Positions 46,115-46,388 of a stretch of 64,000 nucleotides of DNA are shown here, piece by piece. The translations under genes were made by a program, and so were the position numbers. Location: positions 1 to 64,000 of the forward strand of contig JANWVO010000004.1 in NCBI GenBank assembly GCA_025056865.1, read 5' to 3'. The notes beneath the pieces are model-generated. The model was not told the DNA's origin, did not search any database, and saw only the letters and a program-made list of their open reading frames with translations. Source of the stretch: Bryobacteraceae bacterium. Its GTDB lineage: Bacteria; Acidobacteriota; Terriglobia; Bryobacterales; Bryobacteraceae. The number at the start of each line of letters is the position of its first letter. The first letter of the stretch is position 1.

Positions 46115-46213
46115 GTCTACCTGAAGTTTACGAATTCAGGCAGCGGGCGCAGGAACCGGGCAGCGGCACGGCGGAACGGAATACGCGGGAAATTCTGAAC
46201 CGCGGTCCCGCTT

Positions 46214-46229
46214 TGGCACGTCAGGTGCA
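46214..46229 (+). promoter_or_regulatory. Sigma-54 (-24/-12) promoter
   Basis: TGGCACG-TCAG-GTGCA matches the RpoN consensus TGGCACG-N4-TTGCW at all positions but one. The invariant GG (46215-46216) and GC (46227-46228) have the required spacing. Initiation is expected near 46240, 22 bases before the microprotein ATG. It lies in the divergent interval after chrA. An NtrC-type activator is encoded at 58406, but no enhancer site was identified. Confidence 0.65.
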
Positions 46230-46261
46230 GTAGGGGCCGATAAGAGAAAGTGGGGGTTGCG

Positions 46262-46348
46262 ATGCTGATTGGAGCCATTATCACGGGGCTGATGATTCTA
46301 GGGCTCTTCTTCTCGATGCTGGGCTCGTCGCCGCGCAGCTCGGACTGA
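46262..46348 (+). CDS. 28-residue single-helix membrane microprotein downstream of a sigma-54-type promoter
   Basis: The frame is ATG to TGA, 28 codons. Residues 1-20 are a continuous hydrophobic helix starting MLIGAIITGLMILGLFF, followed by a short Ser/Arg tail (GSSPRSSD). A GGGGG ribosome site lies eight bases upstream. The gene fits inside a complete small unit: -24/-12 promoter at 46214-46229, ORF, and hairpin at 46360-46388. Inner-membrane location is expected. No known family was recognised; similar small proteins act as regulators of transporters or kinases. Its existence as a gene rests on this layout and not on homology. Confidence 0.45.
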   Translation: MLIGAIITGLMILGLFFSMLGSSPRSSD

Positions 46349-46359
46349 GTCGCATCGTT

Positions 46360-46388
46360 GCCCGGCTGTGTCGCTTCGACACACGGGC
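46360..46388 (+). terminator. Hairpin after the microprotein ORF
   Basis: GCCCG-GC-TGTGTCG (46360-46373) pairs with CGACACA-CGGGC (46377-46388): a 7-bp upper stem with a three-base loop, a two-base bulge and a 5-bp lower stem. It begins 12 bases after the TGA. It is not followed by a T tract, so it may need Rho or serve as the 3' end of a stable small RNA. Confidence 0.4.

Follow-up and report, generated by a model that had tools for sequence, protein, structure and literature searches.

A conserved sigma-54 microgene of Bryobacteraceae with a putative activator dyad behind its reading frame

Organization of the locus

Within the 64,000-nucleotide stretch of Bryobacteraceae DNA analyzed here (herein the window), positions 46213 through 46383 hold a predicted sigma-54 promoter, a 28-codon open reading frame (ORF), and a 17-bp dyad; the flanking genes both lie on the opposite strand. 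The promoter, TTGGCACGTCAGGTGCA (46213 through 46229, plus strand), has its GG and GC dinucleotides at 46215 through 46216 and 46227 through 46228, and the predicted transcription start lies at ∼46240. A G-rich ribosome-binding stretch (G-run, 46252 through 46256, plus strand) ends 5 nt before the ATG; the leader is G-rich across 103 distinct aligned sites from family loci. The ORF runs from the ATG at 46262 to the stop at 46348 (plus strand) and encodes the 28-residue protein MLIGAIITGLMILGLFFSMLGSSPRSSD; an alternative in-frame GTG at 46250 would give 32 codons. Behind it stands the dyad, TGTGTCGCTTCGACACA (46367 through 46383), proposed here as an enhancer, that is, a putative sigma-54 activator site, on the strength of sequence conservation and spacing; its center is 147 bp past the GC of the −12 box.

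On one side lies chrA, encoding a two-domain chromate transporter (Pfam PF02417; 44945 through 46114, minus strand), which is absent from the set of widely conserved neighbors of the microgene. The other neighbor is an ORF with an HD_4 domain (PF13328; 46529 through 47413, minus strand) whose true start is probably internal. No further gene is evident between the two. An initial annotation of this DNA had placed a promoter, a ribosome site, an ORF, and a hairpin, in that order, in a gene-free interval, with a predicted transcript start near 46240; coordinates, order, ribosome site, predicted start, and empty interval all hold. An Rfam scan of the window at gathering thresholds returned two tRNAs (genes at 1063 through 1137 and 40453 through 40526, both on the minus strand) and nothing else.

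The microprotein family and its promoter

A protein search of 101 relatives matched all four congeners and, weak matches included, 45 of the 101 genomes at E ≤ 10. In Paludibaculum, Bryobacter, Candidatus Sulfopaludibacter, and Bryobacteraceae records, 16 loci were confirmed among 76 candidate stretches. Profile A1, built on 34 members, found a match in 165 of 237 Bryobacteraceae genomes at E ≤ 0.1, and the broader profile A3 (64 members) matched 161 of the 237 at E ≤ 0.01, covering 61 of 76 genera and leaving 76 genomes without a match. Outside the family, profile searches matched none of 20 other genomes of the order, and a phylum sample of 396 genomes gave three matches, each within the family. 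A match to genome G012 from an early search looks like chance, with no microprotein ORF behind it, and was dropped. Genus g42 (e.g., G104 through G119) has no genome among the A3 matches and three weak A1 matches (E 0.027 to 0.058); comparing its activators with those of other genera could point to the regulator.

The counts below refer to 131 loci, the stronger matches of two protein searches, from 130 genomes (G242 gives two); weaker protein matches fall outside this set. Tandem copies of the microgene occur in G029 and in G033, whose second copies are likewise left out of the counts. In G033 (L066) a sigma-54-like element precedes each copy; in G029 (L069/L035) such an element is seen by eye before the second copy and falls below threshold before the first. 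Part of genus g5 (L168, L179, L187, L199, L204, L206, L209, L212) has a second paralog with the core LYILSLFLTSLTSRPP or similar, beginning about 136 to 206 nt upstream of the microprotein; the DNA upstream of this paralog reads TTGACGCGTTA or similar, and a sigma-54 element is not evident there.

Members of the family share the core M-(L/I)-(V/I)-hydrophobic-GLF(F/L)SMLSSSP(K/R). Across 23 within-genus pairs, pN is 0.10 and pS 0.51 (binomial p = 1e-49), the loci having been collected by protein similarity, a choice that favors low pN; dN/dS lies between 0.02 and 0.15 in all 16 genus groups tested. Judged by this pattern of substitution, the microprotein is a real, conserved coding family under purifying selection. 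The check proposed in the initial annotation, conservation of promoter plus ORF in relatives with synonymous compared with nonsynonymous change, thus comes out in favor of a gene, with pS far above pN and the promoter kept at most loci. That annotation had also allowed that the transcript might be a small regulatory RNA with an incidental ORF, as the shortness of the sigma-54 unit might suggest. Because the reading frame is under such strong purifying selection, we regard this alternative as extremely improbable; moreover, no Rfam family matches at the locus, and the 161-nt transcript folds no better than its shuffles (z = 0.06).

Sequence searches of Pfam, NCBIfam, and the Protein Data Bank with family members gave no significant match, only weak, scattered ones. 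The best Pfam match (E = 0.0046, 5 of 64 members) is below the curated cutoff, the remaining Pfam and NCBIfam matches are weaker and scattered, and PHROGs adds only matches of the same weak, scattered sort (best E = 0.0025). None of the libraries searched classifies the protein family. A phage or plasmid origin was considered and rejected: a plasmid collection and viral contigs hold no match to the microprotein, and those in PHROGs are weak.

The window protein has a single hydrophobic segment (best 18-residue Kyte-Doolittle mean, 2.3). Lys or Arg occurs within 10 residues past the helix in 122 of the 131 proteins, and net positive charge ahead of the helix in none of them; since there is one hydrophobic helix with no net positive charge before it and Lys or Arg after it, the sequences suggest an N-out, C-in topology. 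A charged residue among the first 18, found in 21 of 131 proteins, counts against a membrane location. On balance the microprotein is probably a single-pass membrane protein, hydrophobicity being the one property from which action at the membrane is read. The earlier description of a membrane microprotein of no recognized family thus agrees with what we find: a conserved protein with one hydrophobic helix and no Pfam or NCBIfam family. Its size, its single helix, and the tandem copies in a few genomes would also fit a membrane-depolarizing toxin of the TisB, or type I, kind. We consider this improbable, as there is mostly one copy per genome, spread widely through the family, while the plasmid and viral collections contain no match and the tRNAs are the only Rfam matches in the window.

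The element upstream of the ORF fits 12 of the 13 specified positions of the sigma-54 consensus, YTGGCACGN4TTGCW. It is the sole site in the window within one mismatch of TTGGCACGN4TTGCA (shuffles average 0.08), and its GG and GC dinucleotides stand 10 bp apart inside TGGCAC-N5-TTGCW. Similar elements precede most family members. Within 110 nt upstream, 91 of 130 loci have a best score of at least 10, compared with 0.9% of shuffled sequences and 1.5% of other windows taken from these loci; at least 12 is reached by 22 of 130 loci and by no control, and at least 9 by 105 of 130, against 5 to 6% of controls (G016, with short upstream DNA, was left out of these counts). In 98 of the 105 loci scoring at least 9, the −24/−12 element starts 35 to 52 nt before the first matched codon. 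Among the genus alignments inspected, a subset of all genera, the GG and GC of the −24 and −12 boxes form islands in g1, g5, g35, g43, g47, g55, and g90 and do not stand out in g25. Scores fall below 9 in 25 of 130 loci, including all three of g97, both of g87 (G163 and G164), G019, and the first copy in G029.

RpoN (PF04552, over the cutoff) is encoded in the window genome (G000) and in 37 of 37 family genomes examined. Genome-wide, the bare sigma-54 pattern does not exceed its reversed control (29/27 vs. 31/23 matches), so the case for the promoter rests on its conservation rather than on the match itself. On that comparative basis we regard the predicted sigma-54 promoter before the ORF as real and conserved. 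The near-perfect −24/−12 promoter of the initial annotation is thereby upheld: it is unique in the window, and a like element is present in 105 of 130 loci.

Two genes are the usual neighbors of the microgene, one LarA-like (PF09861) and divergent, the other encoding an amidohydrolase (PF07969) and lying downstream. Both are present at 41 of the 131 loci, larA only at 28, the amidohydrolase only at 28, and neither at 34, the window included; contig ends cut some of the flanks on which these counts are based. One could read the ORF as encoding a leader peptide, or as an upstream ORF, that acts in cis on the amidohydrolase or on the divergent larA. In 69 of 131 loci the amidohydrolase follows on the same strand, in 69 of 131 the larA-like gene is divergent, and a promoter scoring at least 9 is better kept where a neighbor is present (84 of 96 loci) than where both are missing (20 of 33). 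We consider this quite improbable, given that the 34 loci have neither gene in the flanks examined, that neighborless loci still keep the promoter in those 20 cases and the dyad (at least 9) in 18 of 33, compared with 61 of 96 others, and that the feature under selection is a hydrophobic helix. The unit can stand alone, surviving at part of the loci without the usual neighbors, and to this extent the description of a self-contained sigma-54 unit, with promoter and ORF conserved together, is sustained. A role of the dyad as operator for the amidohydrolase or larA was rejected on the same 18 of 33 loci. A −35 box serving the following gene was also rejected, since TTGACA with TACAAT 15 to 19 nt on occurs in 0 of 131 loci. 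TACAAT itself occurs behind the microgene in 28 of 131 loci (e.g., L046 and L074), against 0 of 124 controls; in some it stands a short way ahead of the following gene's ATG, which suggests a −10 box with a very short leader.

The palindrome behind the reading frame

GACACA lies near the stop codon in 46 of 131 loci but in only 7 of 1,357 control windows. Loci anchored on GACAC(A/G), present in 62 of 131, show a second island with G at −10 and −8, giving the dyad TGTGTC-N5-GACACA; in 55 of 131 loci the scanned stretch contains neither GACAC(A/G) nor its complement. We chose the scores, patterns, and thresholds ourselves; the checks on them are reversed-pattern and window controls, a gap scan, and a second unit found in five congeners. 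Among the 129 loci scanned for the dyad (one more was dropped beyond G016), 79 match at least 9 of 12 positions, against 2.4% of 870 control windows, and 31 match at least 10, against 0.3%; because these loci also served to define the dyad, part of the enrichment is post hoc. Over the same 129 windows, the reversed pattern gives 10 matches at the lower threshold and none at the higher, and 50 of the 129 loci have no dyad scoring at least 9. The dyad is also confined in position: 86 matches start +50 to +149 from the match start, compared with 0 to 3 per 50-bp bin elsewhere within 700 bp.

The distance from dyad to −12 box is mostly 122 to 178 bp, with outliers at 94 and 210. For the 70 loci in which promoter and dyad both score at least 9, this spacing appears periodic near 10.5 to 11 bp; when each genus is represented by a single locus (n = 27), R is 0.65 at 10.5 bp (Rayleigh p ∼ 1e-5), and with all 70 loci it is 0.49, or 0.41 when measured from the start codon. 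Within genera, the jumps in spacing are only weakly helical (14 jumps, p = 0.047), several of them being near half turns.

The palindrome might instead act as an RNA hairpin that ends or stabilizes a short mRNA. It lies behind the stop codon in most loci, some of which have long perfect GACACA...TGTGTC stems with 3- to 5-nt loops and paired changes, and the strong hairpin reported in the initial annotation is present in the window (−17.9 kcal/mol, against a control mean of −13.1 and SD of 3.4; 12% of controls reach −17). Family-wide, however, hairpins after the ORF are as stable as controls (means of −13.6 and −13.2), and no terminator-like site (GC-rich stem plus T-run) occurs between 46000 and 46700 in the window. 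In 32 of the 79 dyad loci, the dyad begins before the end of the stop codon; as it starts 7 to 77 nt ahead of the stop in 19 of these (nine from one genus), a terminator is unlikely, and with no terminator-like site and family folding at control level this function is disfavored. Further against an RNA hairpin, the half-sites and the 5-bp spacer are conserved in sequence, the spacing to the promoter appears periodic across genera, and the same dyad lies upstream of another sigma-54-like promoter. We therefore hold the hairpin explanation to be unlikely. Because sequence conservation, position, and spacing fit activator dyads better than a mere 3′ stem-loop, that part of the earlier description does not carry over, and the palindrome is probably an activator site, a candidate enhancer at looping distance.

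A second arrangement of the same half-sites occurs behind the ORF (e.g., L174 in G157). GACACA-N3/4/5-TGTGTC scores at least 10 in 40 loci, whereas the N5 dyad does so in 32; the inverse arrangement occurs alone in 25 loci, the N5 dyad alone in 17, and the two together in 15. Our first reading, of a second and unexplained motif, was revised after a scan of gaps in the outer flanks. Around the 40 inverse cores, chosen without regard to their flanks, outer half-sites (at least 4 of 6) peak at an exact 5-bp gap on each side (16 and 13 of 40) and number 0 to 2 at other gaps, except for 11 at a right gap of 7, which may reflect the same CA repeat displaced by two bases. Since outer half-sites stand at the exact 5-bp gap on both sides, the inverse arrangement suggests the junction of two tandem dyads 21 to 22 bp (two helical turns) apart. 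On a given side, 24 to 27 of the 40 cores lack a good outer half-site, and outer half-sites are degenerate in many loci. The window has one clear dyad only.

TGTGTCGCTTCGACACA has no other match within one mismatch in the whole genome and one within two mismatches, as many as its reversed control pattern. That one match belongs to a second sigma-54-like unit, which lies on contig 17 of the window genome (G000:C17:17299-17382; L238 and L216) and recurs in congeners (L263 through L266). In five of five congeners, a dyad matching 10 to 11 of 12 positions stands 74 to 75 bp upstream of the −12 box of a sigma-54-like site scoring 10 to 12. In the window genome the distance is 74 bp, and the site is followed by the gene for a 180-residue protein with a signal-peptide-like start and no Pfam match. 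The unit adjoins a putative Nramp-like transporter with a UspA-like end. Judging by the shared dyad, the activator of the microgene probably also drives this unit. No large regulon is visible, because in five genomes of genus g43 GACACA-N4-TGTGTC is no commoner than its reversed control; on these counts the dyad was rejected as a general terminator or as the site of a large regulon. Among 13 g43 sites away from the microgene (one of them, L252, shortened and of uncertain placement), the score of a sigma-54-like site within 400 bp reaches 10 at three and exceeds it at none.

The initial annotation had pointed to an NtrC-type regulator and a CHASE2 kinase encoded 12 kb away. The pair is real, comprising a response-regulator activator (PF00158 and a Fis-type helix-turn-helix) and a CHASE2 histidine kinase (58406 through 61554, minus strand), but its link to the unit is not supported: a gene like the window activator (tblastn E ≤ 1e-20) is close to the unit in G001 only. 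None occurs in the stretches around the unit in G002 through G004 (about 19 kb per side; about 8 kb on one side in G003) or at a further 29 loci of the family (at most about 8 kb per side, less at contig ends). The window contains no second dyad within three mismatches. The pair is a candidate by nearness only. PilR-type TGTC sites were also considered; a literature search found no paper.

Proposed mechanism and comparison with known systems

Taken together, we find it reasonably likely that the locus is a monocistronic sigma-54 microgene with a putative activator bound behind its ORF and a single-pass membrane regulator as its product. On arrival of a signal, an NtrC-type enhancer-binding protein would bind the dyad, or two tandem dyads, and loop to the RNA polymerase-sigma-54 complex waiting at 46213 through 46229; this contact would start transcription from about 46240, with the body of the gene lying inside the promoter-dyad loop. 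The product would insert with its N terminus outside and its C terminus (SSP-K/R) inside, where it may bind and modulate a membrane partner, such as a transporter, a kinase, or an enzyme complex, in the manner of other very small membrane regulators. A further step is speculative and in our view doubtful: polymerase leaving the promoter crosses the activator site and may evict the activator, giving self-limited pulses of a lineage-specific microprotein that shares one signal with at least one co-regulated protein. If pulses do occur, the unit would be a minimal promoter-gene-enhancer cassette able to stay whole as its neighbors change.

These findings add an unclassified microprotein family, widespread in one acidobacterial family, together with a switch that can be put to the test. 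For conserved microproteins there is often no hint of the conditions of expression; here the microgene seems to carry its activator site along, so that the dyad can serve as bait for the regulator. If conserved and helically spaced, a downstream enhancer of this kind would also lend itself to asking how an enhancer acts while it is itself being transcribed. Searches of the literature on sigma-54 together with Acidobacteria, Bryobacteraceae, or small proteins, covering few subscription papers, found nothing on this system.

Small regulatory single-pass membrane proteins of 20 to 50 residues with one helix include KdpF, CydX, and TisB. The microprotein is like them in size and in its single helix, without a sequence match; the NCBIfam model for K+-transporting ATPase subunit F hits a single member of the 34 tested, at an E value of 0.11 that amounts to chance.

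In its control logic, the unit is a variation on established sigma-54 enhancer control. NtrC boxes have a 6-N5-6 geometry. The unit resembles the NtrC/glnA system in combining a sigma-54 promoter with a distant dyad, and it differs in its half-site, TGTGTC-N5-GACACA, and in the downstream position. At glnA, distant tandem sites act on a sigma-54 promoter through looping, and face-of-helix effects are known in some systems (review PMC7408454). The usual activator site lies about 100 to 150 bp upstream (PMC7057263), and known or predicted downstream sites extend to 1.5 kb (PMC7408454). The closest likeness in placement is to the Class III flagellar promoters of Vibrio cholerae, where FlrC sites are typically downstream of the transcription start and are true enhancers (review PMC6504787); in our unit, the putative activator site is likewise downstream of a start, here predicted from sequence. 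FlrC serves flagellar genes, whereas the dyad described here is found where a 28-codon gene ends or farther on, its spacing appears to vary with helical periodicity across genera, and its activator is putative.
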